Positions 50,977 through 63,619 of a stretch of DNA of 64,000 bases are shown here, piece after piece. The translations under genes and the position numbers were made by a program. How positions within the stretch are numbered: position 1 is the first letter of the stretch; the number at the start of each line of letters is the position of its first letter. The DNA comes from Acidocella sp. 20-57-95 (lineage in GTDB: Bacteria; Pseudomonadota; Alphaproteobacteria; Acetobacterales; Acetobacteraceae): assembly GCA_002255575.1 (NCBI GenBank), contig NCAT01000003.1:62001-126000 (forward strand). Direction: 5' to 3'. The notes beneath the pieces were generated by a model. It searched no databases, was not told where the DNA came from, and saw only the letters and a list, made by a program, of their open reading frames with translations.

Positions 50977-51049
50977 GAGCCAATTTATCGCAGATTGTTA
51001 TGGCCGACCGTGCGTCAGGTCGCCGTGCGCCAATCATATAGCCCCTACT

Positions 51050-51098
51050 TTGATATAAGATATATTAAGTTGACAAGGCGTGTGGGTCACCGTTAAGC
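51050..51098 (+). promoter_or_regulatory. Candidate promoter of the ABC transporter genes
   Basis: TTGACA at 51070-51075 is a perfect -35; 17 bp later TTAAGC (51093-51098) is a poor -10. Eleven bases before the -35 lies TTGATATAAG (51050-51059), 8 of 10 identical to the CTTATATAAG palindrome found twice in the suyA-hpsU gap, with an ATATAAGATA stretch shared exactly with the left copy. A link to the same regulator is possible but unproven. Confidence 0.4.
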
Positions 51099-51181
51099 TT
51101 CTAGCGTCCAAATAAAGTCGTGCAGTGGTGCCAAACGCTACCGCAAATAAACAGACTGAAAATAGCGATGGGAGAATGAAC

Positions 51182-52174
51182 ATGCGTTTCATACGCGGGC
51201 TATTCTTGGCTTTGATCTCTGGCTTCGTAATGCTTTCTGGTGGGGCTGGTTATGCCCGTGCTGAAACGGTCGCGATCGCTCAGGAATATGGAATTTCCTA
51301 TTTGCCGCTCACGATTATACGTGCGCAGGACCTGCTGGCGAAGGCTGGCAAGGCTGAAGGCATCGACATTACAACGAATTGGCTTACCTTCACCGGTGGT
51401 GCACCGATGAATGAGGCGCTGATTTCCGGCAATCTTGATATCGCCTCTGGCGGCGTGGCACCCATGCTGGTGTTATGGGATCGCACGCGCGGAAATATGG
51501 ATGTGAAGGCGCTGGCGGCCTTGGGCTCGATGCCGCTGTTTTTGAATACGTCTGATGCCGATGTGAAAACGATCAAGGATTTTAAAGATAGTGACCGGAT
51601 TGCGCTACCGGCGGTTAAAGTCTCTATCCAGGCGATTATACTTGAGATGGCAGCAGCGCAGGCATTTGGTGATGCCAACTACAATAAGCTGAATGGTTTG
51701 ACTGTTTCGATGTCGCATCCTGATGGGATGTCCTCGCTGATGAATGGCACCGCAGGTATCACCGCTCATTTTACGTCCGCACCATTTCAATATGAGGAAC
51801 TCGCTAATCCAAAAATCCATAAAGTGCTGGATAGCTATCAAGTGGTCGGCGGTCCTCATACTTTTAACGTGGTATGGGCCAGCAAGAAATTTGTCGATGG
51901 TAATCCGAAGGTTGTTAAAGCCTTTATGATTGCTTTGCAGCAGGCAATGGCATTCATTCATGAGCATCCGACCGAAGCGGCAAAAATTTATATTGCTGAT
52001 GAGAAATCGAAATCCTCGATCGAGTCGATTGTGAACATGATCAAAGATCCACAAAATGTCTGGACGACAAAACCACAGCGGATCATGGAGTTTGCCAAAT
52101 TCATGCAAAAAACCGGCCTGATCAAGCATGTGCCAGCTGATACGGCCGACGTTTTTTTCCAGACGTCGAAATGA
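51182..52174 (+). CDS. ABC transporter substrate-binding protein, TauA/SsuA/NMT1 type
   Basis: 330 residues from the ATG at 51182, which has GGAGA 7 bases before it (ATG 51176 is too close). The signal peptide ends at ARA near residue 26. The mature protein begins TVAIAQEYGISYLPLTIIRAQ and has GGAPMNEALISGNLDIASGGVAP near 72, as in periplasmic proteins for nitrate, taurine and sulfonates. It delivers its ligand to the permease encoded two genes later. The ligand is not readable from sequence. Confidence 0.88.
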   Translation: MRFIRGLFLALISGFVMLSGGAGYARAETVAIAQEYGISYLPLTIIRAQDLLAKAGKAEGIDITTNWLTFTGGAPMNEALISGNLDIASGGVAPMLVLWDRTRGNMDVKALAALGSMPLFLNTSDADVKTIKDFKDSDRIALPAVKVSIQAIILEMAAAQAFGDANYNKLNGLTVSMSHPDGMSSLMNGTAGITAHFTSAPFQYEELANPKIHKVLDSYQVVGGPHTFNVVWASKKFVDGNPKVVKAFMIALQQAMAFIHEHPTEAAKIYIADEKSKSSIESIVNMIKDPQNVWTTKPQRIMEFAKFMQKTGLIKHVPADTADVFFQTSK

Positions 52175-52214
52175 CGATTGGGTGTTGCAGCGTACATCAT
52201 GACCGGAGGCCGGT

Positions 52215-53006
52215 GTGACGGATAAAGATGATCTGGTGCTCGATGTCAGTAATGTTACGCTGCAGTACAAGACGCCACAATATTTAGTGACGGCCACCTA
52301 CCGGGTGAATCTCGAAGTGCATCAGAGTGATCGGTTTGTGCTGCTGGGGCCATCAGGTTGTGGGAAGTCAACATTGCTGAAGGCCATCGGTGGATTCATG
52401 GAACCTGTTGAGGGTAAAATTACCCTGCATGGTCGGCCCGTTACCAAGCCAGGCCCAGACCGGATGATGGTGTTCCAGGAATTTGAGCAATTGATGCCGT
52501 GGAAGAGCGTGTTGGAAAATGTAAAATTTCCAATGTTGGCAAGCGGGCGTTTCAAGGGCCGCGACGCACATGACCGAGCCTTGTCGGCGATTGACAAGGT
52601 TCGGCTGACGAAATTCACCAATGTCTATCCGCATATGCTCTCGGGTGGCATGAAAATGCGTGTTGCCATCGCCCGTGCCATGGCGATGGAGCCCGATATT
52701 TTACTGATGGATGAGCCTTTCGCCGCACTCGATGCGCTGACCCGCCGCAAGATGCAGGATGAGTTGCTTGCGCTGTGGGAGCAGGTTCGTTTCACCATGC
52801 TGTTTGTGACGCATTCCATTGAAGAGGCAATTGTCATCGGCTCGCGTATTATGCTGCTTTCGCCGCATCCGGGGCGGGTACGGGCGGAGCTGAATTCGCC
52901 AGGCCCACATGGCGATGAGGCCGAGATCTCCCGCTTATCAAAGCATATTCATGATTTGTTGTTCGGTCACGAGCTTTCGGCACCACGCCCGGCGGGGGTT
53001 GCATGA
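52215..53006 (+). CDS. ABC transporter ATP-binding protein, TauB/SsuB type
   Basis: 263 residues from a GTG. Walker A GPSGCGKST near 44-52, Q-loop QEFEQLMPW near 91, signature LSGGMKMRVAIARAMAM near 139 and Walker B ILLMDEPFAALDALTR near 160-175. It energises import with the binding protein and permease of this operon. It overlaps the permease gene by 4 bp. Confidence 0.94.
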   Translation: MTDKDDLVLDVSNVTLQYKTPQYLVTATYRVNLEVHQSDRFVLLGPSGCGKSTLLKAIGGFMEPVEGKITLHGRPVTKPGPDRMMVFQEFEQLMPWKSVLENVKFPMLASGRFKGRDAHDRALSAIDKVRLTKFTNVYPHMLSGGMKMRVAIARAMAMEPDILLMDEPFAALDALTRRKMQDELLALWEQVRFTMLFVTHSIEEAIVIGSRIMLLSPHPGRVRAELNSPGPHGDEAEISRLSKHIHDLLFGHELSAPRPAGVA

Positions 53007-53896
53007 ATACGAATACGATGAAAAAAGAGGCTTTAAAACTGGCCGCGCGGCCGGAGTTTGAACGTGAGCTCGTGGATGCCAGCTCGATTGGCGCAGCCGA
53101 AATTCCGTTGTCAGTCTTGCAGCGTCTGCAGAATAATACCGGTTTCCGCCGCGGCGCTGTTTTGGTGGCACTCGCGCTGATCTGGCAAGGCTACGCTATG
53201 TGGCTGAATAACCCACTACTATTCCCAACGTTCAGCGATTCCGTCACGGTAATGGTCAGCGATTTCATCAATGGCGAGCTTCTCGGCCGGGTGATGACGT
53301 CGATGAAAGTTCTTGTCATCGGCTATACGATCGGCGTTGCGGTGGCGGCGGTGCTCACCACTTTGGCCGTCTCAAGCCGCTTGGGAAGCGACGTACTTGC
53401 GACGCTGACCGCAATGTTCAATCCGCTGCCGGCCATCGCGCTGCTGCCGCTGGCGCTTATCTGGTTTGGGCTGGGCATGTGGTCGCTGGTGTTCGTGCTG
53501 GTGCATGGCGTGCTGTGGGCCATAGCGTTGAACACCAATTCAGGGTTTCGCTCGGTGCCGGAAACCTTGCGCATGAGCGGCCGCAATTACGGGCTGACTG
53601 GTGTAAGGTATGTTGTCTTAATCCTGATTCCAGCGGCGTTTCCCTCAATTTTGACGGGTCTTAAAATCGGATGGGCGTTTGCTTGGCGGACATTAATCGC
53701 GGCAGAATTGGTGTTCGGCGTGTCGTCGCGCTCCGGCGGGTTGGGCTGGTATATTTTCGAGGCCCGCGAGGAGTTGAATACATCGAGCGTGTTTGCAGGA
53801 CTTCTGACAGTGATCATCATTGGCCTACTGGTTGAATCCGTGTTGTTCCGCGCCATTGAAGTGCGCACGGTACAAAAATGGGGTATGCAGCGATAG
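53003..53896 (+). CDS. ABC transporter permease, TauC/SsuC type
   Basis: 297 residues with six membrane helices after a 50-residue cytosolic start. The EAA-like coupling loop is RSVPETLRMSGRNYGLTGVRYVVLILIPAAFPSILTGLKIGWAFAWRTLIAAEL near 178-230. The family takes up sulfonates, nitrate or similar anions. It is followed after 7 bp by the TauE/SafE gene. Confidence 0.92.
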   Translation: MNTNTMKKEALKLAARPEFERELVDASSIGAAEIPLSVLQRLQNNTGFRRGAVLVALALIWQGYAMWLNNPLLFPTFSDSVTVMVSDFINGELLGRVMTSMKVLVIGYTIGVAVAAVLTTLAVSSRLGSDVLATLTAMFNPLPAIALLPLALIWFGLGMWSLVFVLVHGVLWAIALNTNSGFRSVPETLRMSGRNYGLTGVRYVVLILIPAAFPSILTGLKIGWAFAWRTLIAAELVFGVSSRSGGLGWYIFEAREELNTSSVFAGLLTVIIIGLLVESVLFRAIEVRTVQKWGMQR

Positions 53897-53903
53897 TCGC
53901 GAT

Positions 53904-54638
53904 ATGAGCTTTGCGCTCCCCTATAATTTGCTGATGGTCGTATGGCTTGGGGCGTTTTTTGGCGGGATCATTTCCGGCGCCAGCGGTTTCGGTTTTGCAT
54001 TGATCGCAGCATCTTTCTGGTTGCATCGGCTAACGCCGGTGGAGGCAACGGCTCTGATTACGGGATGCAGCATTCTTGTGAATGCCGGGTTGATGTGGCC
54101 CTTGCGCACGGCCATTGAACCACGACGGTTAGCGCCTTTTGCGTTTGGCGGACTGCTCGGCGTGCCAATCGGCGTTTGGGTATTATCGATTTTGAATGTC
54201 AGTGATTTCAGATTGATCCTTGGCACATTGATGACATTATTTGGGCTTTATGTTCTGTTTGTGCGGCGCCTGCCGGTCTTTGCACACGTACCTCTTGCAG
54301 TTGATGTTGTTGTGGGGGCTGCCGGGGGCATGCTCAGCGGTCTGGGCGGCTTTGCAGGGGTGCTACCGATGATCTGGACTCAGCTGCGCGGCTGGCCGCG
54401 AGATATTGCGCGTGGGGTTTATCAGCCATTTGTTTTGGTCGTGCAGATTTTTACGCTGACGCTAATTGTTGTATCGCAGGTCGACAAAACGGCATTGACA
54501 CTGATCATTATTTCCATCCCTCCCCTCACTGCTGGCAGTTGGATCGGCTGGCAGCTTTACAGCCGCATGAACCACGAAATGTTCCGAAAACTGGTTGCCG
54601 CTGGGGTTATGGTGTCTGGGCTGACCTTAATTTTTTAA
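53904..54638 (+). CDS. TauE/SafE family membrane exporter
   Basis: 244 residues with about eight helices from the ATG at 53904. FFGGIISGASGFGFALIAASFW near 17-38 and VVGAAGGMLSGLGGFAGVLPMIW near 130-152 are the two internally repeated TauE signatures. Members export sulfite or organosulfur acids during sulfonate breakdown, others handle different anions. Tight linkage to a TauABC-type importer supports a sulfite role. A longer frame starting inside the permease gene was rejected. It converges on the GntR gene with 8 bp between. Confidence 0.88.
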   Translation: MSFALPYNLLMVVWLGAFFGGIISGASGFGFALIAASFWLHRLTPVEATALITGCSILVNAGLMWPLRTAIEPRRLAPFAFGGLLGVPIGVWVLSILNVSDFRLILGTLMTLFGLYVLFVRRLPVFAHVPLAVDVVVGAAGGMLSGLGGFAGVLPMIWTQLRGWPRDIARGVYQPFVLVVQIFTLTLIVVSQVDKTALTLIIISIPPLTAGSWIGWQLYSRMNHEMFRKLVAAGVMVSGLTLIF

Positions 54639-54646
54639 TACTCGCA

Positions 54647-55393
54647 TTATGTTACTTCGGTTGCGTAGGCATAATGGTTGGTCTTGCAATAGCTGATGCG
54701 CAACTCGACAATTTTGCCATTCACATCGCGGGCGATGCGGTTAATTTCCAGTAACGGGGTGCCCGTCTCGACCGCAAGATTTTTCATTTCATCGCGTCCC
54801 GCCAGAACGGCGCGTAAGGTTTCGCTGGCATTGGCAATCGTGATGCGATAGCGCTCCTGGTAGATCACATACATTTCCTCAGCCATGTCTTCGCCAGGCG
54901 AAATCGCTAAATCTGGCATCAGAACGACGGGAATATAAACCCGTTCGAAAATGGCGGGATCGCTGCTGAAATGCCGCACCCGTGTGATGACATGCAGCAT
55001 CTCGCCCACCGGAACGGCTAACATCCGCGCCAAATCCTTGGTCGCTTTGACCTGCTTTTGCGAGAGCGGACGGCTGACCGGCGTTAGCCGCTCGCGCTTG
55101 TCGTCCACCATCCGGAAGAACTGGAACAAGGTCTGCTCACCGGTATGGCGCGCCACATAGGTGCCACGGCCCTGTTGGCGCACAATCAGCTTATCGGCTT
55201 CCAGCGCAATAAGGGCCTTGCGGACGGTTCCTTGGCTAACCTTGAATTCCGCAGCGAGTTGAAACTCGTTTGGAATCATTTCGCCTGGTTGCCATTGCCC
55301 AGAACCGATGCGTTGCGTCATCACTGTTTTTACCTGCGCGTAGAGCGGTTGGAAGCTCATGCCGGTTTCGTGCTTATTGGCGGCCTGGCTCAT
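54647..55393 (-). CDS. GntR family regulator with UTRA domain
   Basis: 248 residues. The winged helix is at about 15-80 (IPNEFQLAAEFKVSQGTVRKALIALEADKLIVRQQGRGTYV) and the ligand-binding UTRA domain at about 95-240 (FERVYIPVVLMPDL, SETLRAVLAG, LLEINRIARD). Characterised HutC/UTRA regulators bind short dyads and release on effector binding. It lies next to the comC-slcC-suyBA operon and is the probable reader of the CTTATATAAG sites. In Cupriavidus the DHPS regulator HpsR is of LacI type, so this would be a replacement. Confidence 0.9.
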   Translation of the reverse strand: MSQAANKHETGMSFQPLYAQVKTVMTQRIGSGQWQPGEMIPNEFQLAAEFKVSQGTVRKALIALEADKLIVRQQGRGTYVARHTGEQTLFQFFRMVDDKRERLTPVSRPLSQKQVKATKDLARMLAVPVGEMLHVITRVRHFSSDPAIFERVYIPVVLMPDLAISPGEDMAEEMYVIYQERYRITIANASETLRAVLAGRDEMKNLAVETGTPLLEINRIARDVNGKIVELRISYCKTNHYAYATEVT

Positions 55394-55498
55394 CTTAGGG
55401 TGGGCTTTGCGTTGTGCTGGGAAATGAAAAATATATCATACCCTTTATAGATAATATCCGCCCTATGACGGCAAGGGGTAAAGCTAGCGCGGGGGCGG

Positions 55499-56476
55499 TT
55501 ATGATCCTACAAACCATGAATCCTGCACCTCTATCCCTTCCTGGGCAGCTTTTTGCCGGTTCGCGAGGCGCCGTTCGCCCGGCAGGCGTGCCCCTTTCTC
55601 AGCCGCAACCATAGTAAAAAGCCGCTCAATATAACTGACACCGGGGCCAAACAGGGCCGGATTGATGGCGATGATGAATTGGCCCGTGGCCGGTGGTGGG
55701 CCTTTGGCATCGAGAAACGATGATGCCTCGAAGGCAAAATGACTACCGGTGAGCCCGGCGGCCATCGCTTCGACCATCAGCGCCAGTGCTGCCCCCTTGG
55801 CGCCGCCCAGCGGCAGCATGGTGCCGGCCAGCGCGGCCTTCGCATCCGTGGTTGGTTTGCCGTCTACATCGAGCGCCCAGTCATCCGGAATTGCCGCGCC
55901 CTGCTGTGCCGCCGCCACCACATTGCCGCGCGCCACTTTCGAGAGCGATAAATCAATCACCACCGGCGGGCTGGCAGGGCGCGGAAATGCACTGGCAATG
56001 GGGTTGGTGCCCATGAGTGGCGTTTGCCCGCCCCAGGGCGCCATGGCGGCGGGGGCGTTGGCGAACATGATCGCGATCATGCCGCGTTCGGCAATGCGTT
56101 CCACCGCCAGCCCCATGGCACCGCAATGGCCTGAGCGCGTGATGGATGCTGCTGCAATACCTTGCGCCAGAGCAACCGGCACCAGTGCGGTGATGGCGAG
56201 GTCGATGGCCGGGTAGGCAAAGCCATTGGCGGCATCTACAATCAGAGCAGAAGGCGCGGTCTGGTTGAGGGTGGGAATGGCAAAACCATCAACTTTGCCG
56301 CAATTGGCTTGTGCCGCATAGTTCGCAAGCCGCAACAGCCCGTGGGTGCCCAGCCCGTCCGCCTGCGCCGACACCAAGGCCGTGGCAACCGATTTAGCAT
56401 TGGCGGCAGACGTTTTATGCGTCATCAGCACCGCTTCAGCCTTGGCCTGTGCTTCAGCGAGGGATAATTTTGCCAT
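55499..56476 (-). CDS. comC: (R)-sulfolactate dehydrogenase, Ldh/malate-dehydrogenase family
   Basis: 325 residues of the Ldh2/MDG family: DGLGTHGLLRLANYA near 40, ITRSGHCGAMGLAVERIAERGMIAI near 113-137 with the catalytic His, and LMGTNPIASAFP near 153. In sulfonate pathways ComC reduces 3-sulfopyruvate to (R)-sulfolactate with NADPH. The family also contains lactate, malate and ureidoglycolate enzymes, so the specific role rests on its place behind suyAB and slcC. It is last in the operon. Confidence 0.83.
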   Translation of the reverse strand: MAKLSLAEAQAKAEAVLMTHKTSAANAKSVATALVSAQADGLGTHGLLRLANYAAQANCGKVDGFAIPTLNQTAPSALIVDAANGFAYPAIDLAITALVPVALAQGIAAASITRSGHCGAMGLAVERIAERGMIAIMFANAPAAMAPWGGQTPLMGTNPIASAFPRPASPPVVIDLSLSKVARGNVVAAAQQGAAIPDDWALDVDGKPTTDAKAALAGTMLPLGGAKGAALALMVEAMAAGLTGSHFAFEASSFLDAKGPPPATGQFIIAINPALFGPGVSYIERLFTMVAAEKGARLPGERRLANRQKAAQEGIEVQDSWFVGS

Positions 56477-56481
56477 ACATC

Positions 56482-57411
56482 CTATCCGAGTTTGAGATCG
56501 CGCAGCACGATATCGGCAATCATGCCAGAAACCCGCACGTTTGATTCTGCCGTAACGCCGGCGATGTGGGGGGTGAGAAGCAATTGCTTGATCCCCTCCA
56601 ATAATGCGCCATGGGCCGCATCTAGCGGTTCTCGCTCGAACACGTCGAGCGCGGCGCCAGCGATTTTTCCAGCGCGCAGTGCGTCAGCCAGAGCGGCCTC
56701 GTCGACCACACCACCGCGCGCGGCATTGATCAGCACGGCGCTCGGCTTCATCAAAGCCAGTGTATCGCGGTTCACCAGATGCCGGGTTTCAGTTGATAAT
56801 GGGACATGCAGGCTGATGACATCGCATGTTACGAAAAGTTCGTTAAGCCCCAGCCGCGCGGCGGTTTGCCAGGCGGGGTGCGAGGCGGGCAAAAACGGGT
56901 CGGCAGCGCAAATCGTCATGCCCAGTGCCGCCAGCCGTGTTGCTGCCTGCCGGGCGGTGCCGCCAAAGCCCACCAACCCGGCACGCTTGCCCGCGATTTC
57001 AAGACCAATCAGCCGCTCACGCGGCCAGCTTCCAGCCGCCACGGCGGCGCTCTCCCGATAGGCGCCGCGCAGCAGCATCATGGCCGTGCAGACCACATAT
57101 TCGGCCACCGCCGCGTCGTTAGCGCCGGTTGCCGGGTAAACGGCAATGTTGCGGGCAGCGCATGCTTCAAGATCGATGTTATCGAGCCCCACACCCAGAC
57201 GCCCGATGAGTTGCAGTTTGGGTCCCGCTTCGAGCAACGCCGCCCTAACCTGAGTGCGGTTGCGGACAATTAACGCCCGCGCCGCGCCCAAAGCTGCCCG
57301 TAAATCATCGGGGCGGTCAACGAGGTCCGGCGCATACAGCACAGGCGTTTTCGCCTGCAGCTGATGCACCGAAGTCTCGTCCATGAACTCAGCGATGACG
57401 ATATCCGCCAT
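56482..57411 (-). CDS. slcC: (S)-sulfolactate dehydrogenase, D-2-hydroxyacid dehydrogenase family
   Basis: 309 residues. The NAD motif is a variant, AGLVGFGGTARQAATRLAALG near 147-167. Catalytic Arg in LINAARGGVVDEAALADAL near 225-243, Glu in FEREP and His in LLTPHIAGVTAES near 280 are present. SlcC oxidises (S)-sulfolactate to 3-sulfopyruvate. It is close to SerA-type sequences, so context decides the name. Five bp separate it from comC; together they turn the S form into the R form used by SuyAB. Confidence 0.84.
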   Translation of the reverse strand: MADIVIAEFMDETSVHQLQAKTPVLYAPDLVDRPDDLRAALGAARALIVRNRTQVRAALLEAGPKLQLIGRLGVGLDNIDLEACAARNIAVYPATGANDAAVAEYVVCTAMMLLRGAYRESAAVAAGSWPRERLIGLEIAGKRAGLVGFGGTARQAATRLAALGMTICAADPFLPASHPAWQTAARLGLNELFVTCDVISLHVPLSTETRHLVNRDTLALMKPSAVLINAARGGVVDEAALADALRAGKIAGAALDVFEREPLDAAHGALLEGIKQLLLTPHIAGVTAESNVRVSGMIADIVLRDLKLG

Positions 57412-57418
57412 GATGATT

Positions 57419-58588
57419 TCAGGCGCTGCGATACAGCTTCGTCATGCTGAATTCGCGGTGCCCTAATGCCTCGGCGGCGGTGAGGCGGCCGTTGGCTGTA
57501 CGGTAGATATTTTCAATCAACGCATCGCCGGCCTGCTCGATGGTCATTTCCCGACGCAGTACGCCCGAGACATCAACATCGATATGTTCAGGCATGGTCC
57601 GCACGGTGCGCGGGTTGCCGGTAATTTTGATCACCGGCACGATCGGGTTACCGATCACATTACCCTGGCCGGTCGGGAAGGTGTGGATCACATAACCACC
57701 CGCCGCCATCAACGTGACGCATTCGGCGGCGGCGGATGATGTGTCCATATAATACAGGCCAGGTCCACGCCCGGGTTCTTCGGCCGGCTGCAAAGCATCA
57801 AGGAACTTGCTGTTATGGCCCATTTTCTCAAGGTTCCCCAGGGCCTTCTCCTCAATGGTGGTCAAGCCGCCGAGGATATTGCCTTTGGTGGGCTGGCTGT
57901 CTGAAAGATCGTCGGTTTTGTGGGCCTCGATCACGTCTTCCTGGTAGGCTTTCCACATTTTATACCATTTTTCCTCGATCTCCGGAGAGATCGCCCGCTT
58001 GCGCGCCAGATGCTCCCCGCCGGTGATTTCCGAGGTCTCACCGAACACGCCGTAAATACCCTGTGGGATCAGCTTGTCATACATATTGCCAACGGCCGGG
58101 CAGGAAGCGAGACCGGTGGTGGTATCACTCTCGCCACACTTGGTTGAAATCCACAGATCCGAGACTTTAATCGGCTCACGCTTGAGCTCGGACGCCCACT
58201 GCACAAATTCCTTGGCTTTGCGTGAGGCGGAAGCGATGGTGTTGATATCGCCATGCTGCTCGATCCAAAAACCTTCAACCGGTTTGCCGGTTTTGCGGAT
58301 GCCATCCACCACCCGGCCGGTCCATGAGGGTTCAATCCCGATCACGATGACCGCAGCGACATTCGGGTTTGAGCCGGTGCCGATGAGGGTACGGAAATGC
58401 ACTTCCAAATCTTCGCCAAACTGCAAACGCCCATAGGCGTGCGGAATGGCCATGGTGCCTTTGATGTTGTTGGCTACCGCTTCGCAGGCGGCGTTCGACA
58501 AATCATCGAGCGGCAGGATGACAACGTGATTGCGCACGCCAACACGGTTATTTTCGCGGCGCCAGCCGGTTAGGGTCATTTCATTCAT
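57419..58588 (-). CDS. suyB: (R)-sulfolactate sulfo-lyase, large subunit
   Basis: 389 residues of the UxaA/altronate-dehydratase C-domain family. It begins [19 protein letters not shown] and has the iron-ligand region [21 protein letters not shown] near 149-169 and [22 protein letters not shown] near 309. Galactarate/altronate dehydratases are relatives, but in SuyAB the large subunit is separate from a SAF-domain small subunit, as here (14 bp apart). The enzyme splits (R)-sulfolactate to pyruvate and sulfite. Confidence 0.9.
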
Positions 58589-58602: not shown

Positions 58603-58890
58603 TTACCAGCGTTTCGTTTTGAGATTATGGGTGTGAACATGGCTGCCTTTGCGCGTGTCAGCCACGATCTTGCCGATGTCTTCGCCATATTTGATTGCGG
58701 TGTCACCAGCTTTAAGGTCGCGAAGCGCCACCTTATGGCCAATTGGCACATCATCATTCACGGTCAGATGAAATGCCTCATTGGTTTTGGTGATCACACA
58801 TAACATATCAGTGCCGGCCTTAAGGTCTTCAATTACGACAACGCCGACATTGTCTTCTGAGTTATGAACTAAAAGCTGTGGTATGCTCAT
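58603..58890 (-). CDS. suyA: (R)-sulfolactate sulfo-lyase, small subunit
   Basis: 95 residues forming one SAF domain: [21 protein letters not shown], then [22 protein letters not shown] and the C-terminal [14 protein letters not shown], where the HTHN motif is shared with the N-domain of altronate dehydratases. It partners SuyB. It is first in the suyAB-slcC-comC operon, behind a TTGACA promoter whose -10 lies in a 15-bp palindromic site. Confidence 0.9.
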
Positions 58891-58930: not shown

Positions 58931-58945
58931 ATAACTTATATAAGA
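58931..58945 (+). promoter_or_regulatory. Operator candidate, left copy
   Basis: ATAACTTATATAAGA, centred on the perfect 10-bp palindrome CTTATATAAG (58935-58944). The same 15 bases recur in inverted orientation at 59026-59040. Likely target of the nearby GntR regulator, which is inference. Confidence 0.65.
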
Positions 58946-58962
58946 TAGCTGTTAACTGTCAA
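58935..58962 (-). promoter_or_regulatory. suyA promoter
   Basis: On the minus strand TTGACA (58962-58957) and TATAAG (58940-58935) are 16 bp apart, 45 bases before the suyA ATG. The -10 box is part of the palindrome at 58931-58945, so a bound regulator would block it. Confidence 0.65.
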
Positions 58963-59015
58963 CTGCTGCTTAGAGTTATCGCGGTTGTCGCTTAAAAAGC
59001 AACCCAACGTAAAGC

Positions 59016-59043
59016 TTGACATAAGTCTTATATAAGTTATATT
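59016..59043 (+). promoter_or_regulatory. hpsU promoter
   Basis: TTGACA at 59016-59021 and TATATT at 59038-59043 with a 16-bp spacer, about 78 bases before the hpsU ATG. The spacer contains most of the right copy of the palindromic site, so regulation by steric block fits. Confidence 0.68.
59026..59040 (-). promoter_or_regulatory. Operator candidate, right copy
   Basis: ATAACTTATATAAGA on the minus strand, identical over 15 bases to 58931-58945. The core CTTATATAAG is at 59027-59036; the two centres are 92 bp apart, close to nine helical turns. Confidence 0.65.
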
Positions 59044-59120: not shown

Positions 59121-61843
<2,723 letters not shown>

Positions 61844-61846
61844 AGC

Positions 61847-62611
61847 ATGACGAATCGTCTTGATAATTTGTTCAATCTTGATGGCCGACACGCGCTGGTC
61901 ACGGGCGGTAGTAGCGGCATCGGCTTGGCGATCGCCGAGGCGCTTGGGCGGCAGGGTGCATCAGTAACGTTGGTGGCGCGGCGGGAGACTGAATTATTAG
62001 CCGCATCTGCGCGGCTGCATGATCTTGGCATCAGGGCAGAGTTTCTTGCAGCCGATCTAGGCAAACATGAGGGACCAGATGCGGTTGTTGATGCGATAAA
62101 AATGCCGGTGGATATTCTGGTGAATGCGGCCGGCATAAATTTGCGCCAGCCGTTTGAAAGCGTCACGTTGGAAGCGTTCGACGCGCACATGGCGATTCAT
62201 CTTCGCGCGCCATTCCGGCTGGTGCAGCGCCTCGCACCTGGCATGGCCGAGCGGCATTATGGCCGCGTGATCATGTTTGGATCGCTGCAATCCTACCGGG
62301 CCTTTCCAAACTCGGCGCCCTACGGTGCGGCCAAAGGTGGCGTTTTACAATTAACCCGTGCGATCGCCGAGCAATGGTCACGGCACGGCATCACGTGCAA
62401 CGCCATTGTGCCTGGATTTTTCCGCACCGGCCTGACCGAAGCGGTGTTTAAGGATGAGGCGATCGCGGCACGCAATGCCGCCCAAACCGCCATAGGCCGT
62501 AATGGCGTGATGGAGGATTTATTCGGGACGGCGATCTTTTTGGCATCACAGGCTTCAGCCTATGTGACAGGCCAGATATTGCCCGTAGATGGCGGATTTA
62601 CGGCCAAATAG
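61847..62611 (+). CDS. hpsO: SDR dehydrogenase, probable DHPS 2-dehydrogenase (HpsO)
   Basis: 254 residues. Cofactor loop LVTGGSSGIGLAIAEAL near 17-33, NAAG near 90, catalytic Ser in GSLQSYRA near 144 and YGAAKGG near 157-163, and the C-terminal ASAYVTGQILPVDGG. In the Cupriavidus system HpsO and HpsP together interconvert DHPS enantiomers through the 2-ketone. The assignment follows gene order. It starts 3 bp after hpsN. Confidence 0.8.
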   Translation: MTNRLDNLFNLDGRHALVTGGSSGIGLAIAEALGRQGASVTLVARRETELLAASARLHDLGIRAEFLAADLGKHEGPDAVVDAIKMPVDILVNAAGINLRQPFESVTLEAFDAHMAIHLRAPFRLVQRLAPGMAERHYGRVIMFGSLQSYRAFPNSAPYGAAKGGVLQLTRAIAEQWSRHGITCNAIVPGFFRTGLTEAVFKDEAIAARNAAQTAIGRNGVMEDLFGTAIFLASQASAYVTGQILPVDGGFTAK

Positions 62612-62623
62612 AAGGAGGCTTCC

Positions 62624-63619
62624 GTGAAAGCACTGATGTATCTGGCCCCTGGGGTCGTGGAATACCGCGATGTTCCGGTTCCTGTTGCAGGGCCCGATGA
62701 AGTTTTGGTGAAGGTGGAAGCGGTCGGTATTTGCGGCTCGGACATGCATGCCTACCATGGCCATGATGAGCGCCGCCCACCGCCGCTGGTGCTAGGCCAT
62801 GAAGCCGCCGGCGTGATTGCTGAAGGCCCACGCTGCGGTCAGCGCGTGACCATCAATCCGCTGGTGACATGTGGGCATTGCGAATTCTGCGTTGCGGGCA
62901 ACACGCATCTTTGCGGGCAACGGCAGATTATCTCAATGCCGCCGCGTCCCGGCGCGTTCGGTGAATATGTCACCATTCCGGAACGTAATGTCGTGGTGAT
63001 CCCTGAGTCTATGCCGTTCAATGTTGCGGCGCTGGCGGAGCCATTGGCGGTTTCCTGGCATGCGGTACGGATCGGCGTGGAATTATTACGGCGGCCTTTG
63101 GCGGTTGCCACCTGCTGCGTATTGGGCGGCGGGGCCATTGGGCTGGGGGCTGCCCTGGTGCTGCGCCGCTTCGGTGCCCACAAAATTCATTTGGGTGAGC
63201 CGAATGAAAAACGCCGTGCCACGGCGGTGGCGGCGCTGCCATTGAACGCCTATGCGCCAGGCACGCCTGCAGAGCCACTGGCGGCCTCGGTTGATTTTGT
63301 GATCGATGCTGTCGGCGCGAAAGCCACCCGCGAGGCCGCCAGCCGCTTGGTAAAGCCAGGGGGCATTATCATTCACGCCGGCTTGCTGCCGGGGGTAGAT
63401 GGCTTTGATGTGCGCCGGATCACCCTACAGGAAGTTACAGTGCGGGGAACCTATTGTTACACGCAGAGCGATTTCCGCGATGTCGTTGATACGCTTGCCA
63501 TTAGCGGCTTTGGCAATCTTAACTGGGTTGCCCAGATGCCGCTGAGTGCGGGTGCGCAGGCATTTGCCGAAATCGACCAAGGGGCGTTGGAAGCTGCCAA
63601 AATATTGCTGGTCCCGTAG
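62624..63619 (+). CDS. hpsP: Zinc alcohol dehydrogenase, probable DHPS 2-dehydrogenase (HpsP)
   Basis: 331 residues from a GTG with AAGGAGG 6 bases before it. Catalytic zinc site GICGSDMHAYHG near 36-47 and GHEAAGVI near 58, structural zinc cysteines in TCGHCEFCVAGNTHLC near 81-96, and the NAD loop CVLGGGAIGLGAALVL near 166. It pairs with HpsO in racemising DHPS. It closes the hpsUNOP operon; no terminator hairpin is obvious after it. Confidence 0.82.
   Translation: MKALMYLAPGVVEYRDVPVPVAGPDEVLVKVEAVGICGSDMHAYHGHDERRPPPLVLGHEAAGVIAEGPRCGQRVTINPLVTCGHCEFCVAGNTHLCGQRQIISMPPRPGAFGEYVTIPERNVVVIPESMPFNVAALAEPLAVSWHAVRIGVELLRRPLAVATCCVLGGGAIGLGAALVLRRFGAHKIHLGEPNEKRRATAVAALPLNAYAPGTPAEPLAASVDFVIDAVGAKATREAASRLVKPGGIIIHAGLLPGVDGFDVRRITLQEVTVRGTYCYTQSDFRDVVDTLAISGFGNLNWVAQMPLSAGAQAFAEIDQGALEAAKILLVP

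Follow-up and report, generated by a model that had tools for sequence, protein, structure and literature searches.

Which regulator controls the divergent suyA and hpsU operons of Acidocella sp. 20-57-95, and through which DNA sites? The window (the whole stretch of 64,000 nucleotides analysed here) carries a predicted cluster for the catabolism of sulfolactate and DHPS, which is part of the sulfur cycle. The gene content (suyAB, slcC, comC, hpsNOPU) and the Pfam domains match such a cluster, and the synteny is kept in relatives, the nearest named ones being Acidocella genomes. Leftward, suyA is followed by suyB, the slcC-like and comC-like genes, a 105-bp gap and a GntR/UTRA gene; hpsU, hpsN, hpsO and hpsP run rightward. 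The gene names below come from domain families and synteny, and enzyme activities are predicted from them; the sole specific equivalog match (comC, L-sulfolactate dehydrogenase) is below the curated cut-off.

54647-55393, minus strand: gntR, GntR/UTRA regulator (HutC subfamily, SdhR branch, assigned by Pfam and tree), last gene in the suyA direction
55499-56476, minus strand: comC-like malate/lactate-family dehydrogenase (best NCBIfam match L-sulfolactate dehydrogenase, below its cut-off)
56482-57411, minus strand: slcC-like 2-hydroxyacid dehydrogenase, candidate (S)-sulfolactate dehydrogenase (domain and synteny)
57419-58588, minus strand: suyB, predicted sulfolactate sulfo-lyase large subunit (GD_AH domains in Pfam)
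58603-58890, minus strand: suyA, predicted sulfolactate sulfo-lyase small subunit (SAF domain, synteny with suyB)
59121-60539, plus strand: hpsU-like MFS transporter (domain and synteny)
60536-61843, plus strand: hpsN-like, histidinol dehydrogenase family, candidate DHPS-3-dehydrogenase (domain)
61847-62611, plus strand: hpsO-like short-chain dehydrogenase (domain)
62624-63619, plus strand: hpsP-like zinc dehydrogenase (domain)

Two operator-like sites in the suyA-hpsU gap

The gap between suyA (minus strand) and hpsU (plus strand) is 230 bp long and contains both copies of ATAACTTATATAAGA together with two predicted promoters:

58931-58945, plus strand: predicted operator 1, ATAACTTATATAAGA; core at 58935-58944, overlying the suyA -10 box
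59026-59040, minus strand: predicted operator 2, inverted copy of the same 15-mer; core at 59027-59036, inside the hpsU -35/-10 spacer
minus strand: predicted suyA promoter, -35 TTGACA at 58957-58962 and -10 TATAAG at 58935-58940, spacing 16 bp, kept in relatives
plus strand: predicted hpsU promoter, -35 TTGACA at 59016-59021 and -10 TATATT at 59038-59043, spacing 16 bp

An earlier note on this DNA had described two inverted copies of a 15-bp palindromic site, one on the suyA -10 box and the other in the hpsU spacer, with a perfect TTGACA at each promoter and 92 bp between the centres. Coordinates, strands, TTGACA boxes and the placement of both copies (TATAAG is inside operator 1) were all confirmed, and the core centres are indeed 92 bp apart. 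The term palindrome applies to the 10-bp core CTTATATAAG, which is perfect; the 15-mer is an imperfect palindrome, and its flanks set the inverted orientation. The two promoters have consensus -35 boxes and non-consensus -10 boxes, and the exact pattern TTGACA-N14-20-TATAAT is absent from the window. RNA hairpins were rejected as an explanation: by the predicted promoters, the palindromes are at or upstream of the transcription start, outside any transcribed leader.

A window scan for the 15-mer with up to three mismatches gave five matches (0.34 expected), namely both sites, both sites read on the opposite strand and one at 51049. The claim that the two sites are the only copies in the window holds, the match at 51049 being the sole further one at this threshold. 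The genome (3,042,749 bp, 98% complete) was scanned as well. ATAACTTATATAAGA with up to two mismatches and the 12-bp sequence TCTTATATAAGA with up to one mismatch are found in the suyA-hpsU gap only, and the core CTTATATAAG at the two gap sites only, compared to 5 for the reversed control. Many unrelated genome copies would have spoken against the earlier proposal; none was found in the 3.04 Mb. Exact sites number 42 in 712 kb of regulator loci versus 0.1 in dinucleotide shuffles. Chance AT-rich sequence is ruled out by the window, genome, reversed-control and shuffle counts.

Co-occurrence of the sites with one GntR protein

In four Acidocella-group gaps (the window, G017, G009 and G031) both 15-mers and both TTGACA boxes form fully conserved islands, while most other gap sequence has drifted; the site spacing is 92, 92, 93 and 94 bp. 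In A. facilis the GntR protein (61% identical) faces suyA, and one perfect TCTTATATAAGA is found behind TTGACA. In the family survey, a site (zero or one mismatch) was found within 300 bp of suyA in 12/12 promoters with the regulator, including G031, whose regulator sits on a short contig of its own, so that adjacency is assumed. No site was found in 36/36 suyA promoters without the regulator (best 3-7 mismatches), which gives a Fisher value of 1.4e-11 in a statistic that ignores the relatedness of the genomes. Where the regulator is 35-38% identical (two loci of the family), the 2-mismatch variant TCTTATAAATGA is all that is present; these loci were excluded from both counts.

A scan of the genome collection yielded 39 loci. 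Where a regulator of at least 50% identity and suyA are on the same DNA, a TCTTATATAAGA-like site is found upstream of suyA in all 20 loci (the window plus 19, which partly overlap with the 12 survey loci since the same genomes are in both collections). These 20 loci span Acetobacteraceae and Hyphomicrobiales, including Bradyrhizobium, Afipia and Methylobacterium. The copy with at most one mismatch in Acidiphilium iwatense is on the hpsU side, and its suyA-proximal copy has two mismatches. In Bradyrhizobium, Methylobacterium and Alteromonadaceae, gntR too is preceded by a site. At 40-42% identity there are two suy-linked homologues: L183 has no site and L184 only the 1-mismatch TCATATATAAGA. 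The gap comparison called for by the earlier note thus shows the sites kept wherever this GntR and suyAB are kept, and suyA promoters without this GntR are also without sites, which fits the assignment to the GntR protein at 54647.

Two loci are recorded separately. L181 (G215, genome 72% complete) has suyAB of the clade (at least 78%), no detectable GntR of the branch and no site (5 mismatches). On G031 contig C107 (L024/L112) the regulator is only 62% identical to that of the window; suyAB/hpsU are 91-96% identical and the sites identical. This mismatch is possibly due to replacement of the regulator or to an assembly break.

An SdhR-type core and a probably re-targeted regulator

The window regulator has an N-terminal GntR wHTH domain (Pfam, 71 bits, 6.5e-20) and a C-terminal UTRA domain (93.8 bits, 1.1e-26), both above cut-off, the arrangement that defines the HutC subfamily. 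The HutC-type operator GT-N4-AC (NyGTMTAKACNy), typical of the subfamily although not universal, is not present at the window sites, whose core CTTATATAAG lacks GT/AC. SdhR is listed as a HutC-subfamily exception with the motif TCTTATGTCTTATATAAGACATAAGA in PMC4494728 (citing Suvorova 2012), and this published motif includes the identical 12-bp core TCTTATATAAGA. Both window sites match the core at 11/12 positions; the match is 12/12 in A. facilis, at ZJ5 hpsU, in Bradyrhizobium and in others. The outer SdhR boxes (TCTTATG...CATAAGA) are absent from the flanks of the window sites and present in sdh-linked loci.

By a phylum-wide search we found homologues of 33-37% identity in loci where a site with the SdhR motif is flanked by mdh on one side and gntR-sdhC-sdhD-sdhA on the other (mdh<-site->gntR-sdhC-sdhD-sdhA). 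The mdh and sdh names are our reading of translations (e.g., the RSHTVAAQGG stretch of SdhA), and the SdhR regulon was compared through these recovered loci. No SdhR-type control of sdh/mdh is seen in the Acidocella genome, in which sites with up to one mismatch are confined to the suyA-hpsU gap. A tree of 99 proteins places the window regulator in a 25-row clade (support 100/99), 22 rows of which have suyB nearby and three of which are on cut contigs; the sdh-linked proteins group in a separate clade (100/97). Other suy-linked HutC proteins sit in other branches, one of these branches (found in suy-bearing Acetobacteraceae) with a different palindrome.

The shared core and the sdh-type loci at 33-37% identity point to the window regulator as an SdhR-branch HutC/GntR protein that was re-targeted to sulfolactate/DHPS genes. 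The two regulators share TCTTATATAAGA, the domain architecture, a Gln at the position of FadR Arg-45 and one broader branch. They differ in targets (mdh and sdhCDA for SdhR, predicted suyAB/hps for the window regulator), in the TCTTATG/CATAAGA boxes, which are on the SdhR side only, and in their separate supported clades. By predicted operator and branch the protein is SdhR-like; by predicted targets it is not SdhR. The earlier note had named the GntR at 54647 as the probable repressor, and this choice gains independent support from the SdhR motif published in PMC4494728, which belongs to the same branch and was recovered here at the mdh/gntR-sdhCDA loci.

The recognition residues were compared with FadR, in which Arg-35 and Arg-45 contact G specifically (tabulated in PMC4494728). 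Motif matching (E-R and T-R-T-T-x-R of FadR with E43-F44 and S53-Q54-G55-T56-V57-R58 of the window protein) places F44 and Q54 at these positions. Every suy-linked (22/22) and every sdh-linked (18/18) protein has Gln at position 54, and none has Arg at position 44. Judging from this alignment, the apparent loss of both G-contacting Arg residues would fit an operator without GT/AC. NagR/YvoA and DasR, HutC repressors with solved structures, likewise have the GntR wHTH and UTRA domains over nearly the full length. In contrast, the HutC consensus is GTMTAKAC where the window sites have TTATATAA, and the Arg at the start of their recognition helix is Gln in the window regulator.

Could a different DNA-binding protein, such as a global regulator, be the one that binds the sites, with the GntR co-occurrence reflecting shared cluster ancestry? 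The clusters do share ancestry and an AT-rich palindrome could serve other factors. However, with two copies in the genome a global regulator's site is ruled out, and the site follows the GntR branch to unrelated targets in other classes (mdh/sdh, GH31-TRAP and TctC/TauE). Furthermore, suyA promoters with other GntR proteins have different palindromes, and the SdhR motif was published independently (PMC4494728). We regard another protein as highly improbable.

HutC-type regulation is known; what appears to be new is a re-targeted regulon on sulfolactate/DHPS genes. Our literature search turned up no described operator of suyAB or hps genes, nor one for HpsR. HpsR, like the window regulator, is a cluster-linked regulator of DHPS genes; in Ruegeria pomeroyi it is annotated as LacI-family (PMC4334477) whereas the window regulator is GntR, and hpsR is also found in Cupriavidus pinatubonensis (PMC11382572). 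SuyR of the Chromohalobacter sulfolactate cluster (PMC6018796) is likewise the regulator gene of a suyAB-slcC-comC cluster, a comparison made by name and cluster only. With the window regulator, sulfolactate/DHPS catabolism gains a predicted regulator-operator pair, consistent across Acetobacteraceae and Hyphomicrobiales and usable for finding further regulon genes. It would be a case of a transcription factor branch in which the DNA target was kept and the genes moved from the citric acid cycle to malate-analogue catabolism.

Different HutC-type GntR proteins (26-33% identity) are divergent from suyA in other Acetobacteraceae (L098, L101, L164, L166, L167, L174, L178 and L180). The palindromes near suyA in these eight loci differ, e.g., TCATCTAGGTCATATAGTTGAC.

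Proposed mode of action and wider regulon

We propose that the two sites are operators of the cluster GntR/UTRA repressor, which would occlude the promoters of both operons and be relieved by a C3-sulfonate, likely sulfolactate. We give this reading a probability of roughly 0.87. Site identity, conservation, regulator co-occurrence, promoter overlap and the relation to the SdhR motif were computed; from them we infer actual binding, repression over activation, autoregulation and the effector. One GntR dimer would bind each CTTATATAAG palindrome separately. The dimer at suyA would cover the -10 box and that at hpsU the -35/-10 spacer, so that RNA polymerase is excluded and both operons are shut. 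Upon entry of the sulfonate into the UTRA domain, the dimer would leave both sites. Uptake through HpsU, the HpsNOP steps from DHPS to sulfolactate and desulfonation by SuyAB together with SlcC and ComC would then start jointly. As the last gene of the leftward run from suyA, gntR may also be repressed by its own product. A block GATATTATCTATAAAGGGTATGATA (minus strand, window 55425-55465) upstream of gntR is kept in three Acidocella genomes and has no operator match; this separate conserved block in the comC-gntR gap suggests that gntR may have its own promoter.

TTGAC is found 10-23 bp upstream of the site at 17/21 suyA and 4/4 hpsU promoters (1.8% expected). This geometry puts the site on the core promoter, a repressor's position. 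Promoter overlap alone leaves the sign unproven, and the GntR protein could instead be an activator at these sites, or activate one operon and repress the other; the degenerate site at the ssuA promoter (see below) does stand upstream of TTGACA. The main sites, however, overlie the -10 box or the -35/-10 spacer, a position at which a bound dimer stands in the way of polymerase, and both -35 boxes are consensus, whereas activated promoters typically have weak ones. Activation is thus very unlikely, and repression is the preferred sign.

The symmetric layout had been taken as a sign of one repressor for both operons. One GntR protein is supported, but the sites are probably two independent operators, one for each promoter. 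HutC divergons fall into two classes, with separate sites or with double sites acting as a pair (PMC4494728). If the latter applied here, two dimers some 92 bp apart would contact each other, looping out the gap and shutting both promoters, and the spacing of 92-94 bp in the four close relatives, despite diverged sequence in between, is what one would expect. However, the divergent gap of A. iwatense has one site per promoter 117 bp apart, a difference of 25 bp that is not whole helical turns. In strain ZJ5 (L115) the suyA and hpsU operons are separated and non-divergent with a single site at each. A single site is the usual number at suyA promoters, and each site keeps register with its own -35 box. 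A looped pair is therefore unlikely. The A. iwatense and ZJ5 arrangements favor sites that most likely act one per promoter, and the layout is closer to the separate-sites class than to a fixed loop.

Chemically, sulfolactate is malate in which a sulfonate replaces one carboxylate. It is the substrate of SuyAB, and suyAB is common to nearly all clade loci while hps genes are found in few; from these gene neighborhoods, sulfolactate is more likely than DHPS to be the effector. The sister regulator faces mdh/sdh, and together with the malate analogy this speculatively suggests a ligand switch. An SdhR-type C4-dicarboxylate sensor may have been recruited for sulfolactate, its ligand pocket and targets changed and its operator core kept; we put this forward only tentatively. 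Sensor-domain positions 112, 159, 173, 179, 186, 216, 223 and 224 are cleanly different between the suy and sdh clades.

The further window match is a candidate third operator:

51049-51060, plus strand: probable weaker operator TTTGATATAAGA, 2 mismatches, before the sulfonate-type SsuA-family ABC transporter/TauE operon (51125-54638)

The relative G009 has the 1-mismatch TCTGATATAAGA in the same place (L022:4438), and in REEB78 a single ACTTATATAAGA lies between suyA and a divergently oriented ssuA-like gene. These three observations suggest that the ABC transporter operon is probably in the same regulon.

More distant homologues also have such sites. In L128-L144 (mostly Alteromonadaceae; L143 excepted) GntR homologues of 35-41% identity come with one to four TCTTATATAAGA-type sites, which surround an operon with a GH31 glycosidase, a TRAP transporter and a TonB receptor (genes checked in L133). 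The RW..Y motif is typical of sulfoquinovosidases. The GH31 enzyme lacks it, and the idea that the Alteromonadaceae targets are sulfonate genes found no support. In L026, from another alphaproteobacterial family, exact TCTTATATAAGA copies (L026:9209 and L026:15907) precede a TctC-type transporter operon and a TauE/SafE permease gene, the latter adjoining a GntR protein of 37% identity.
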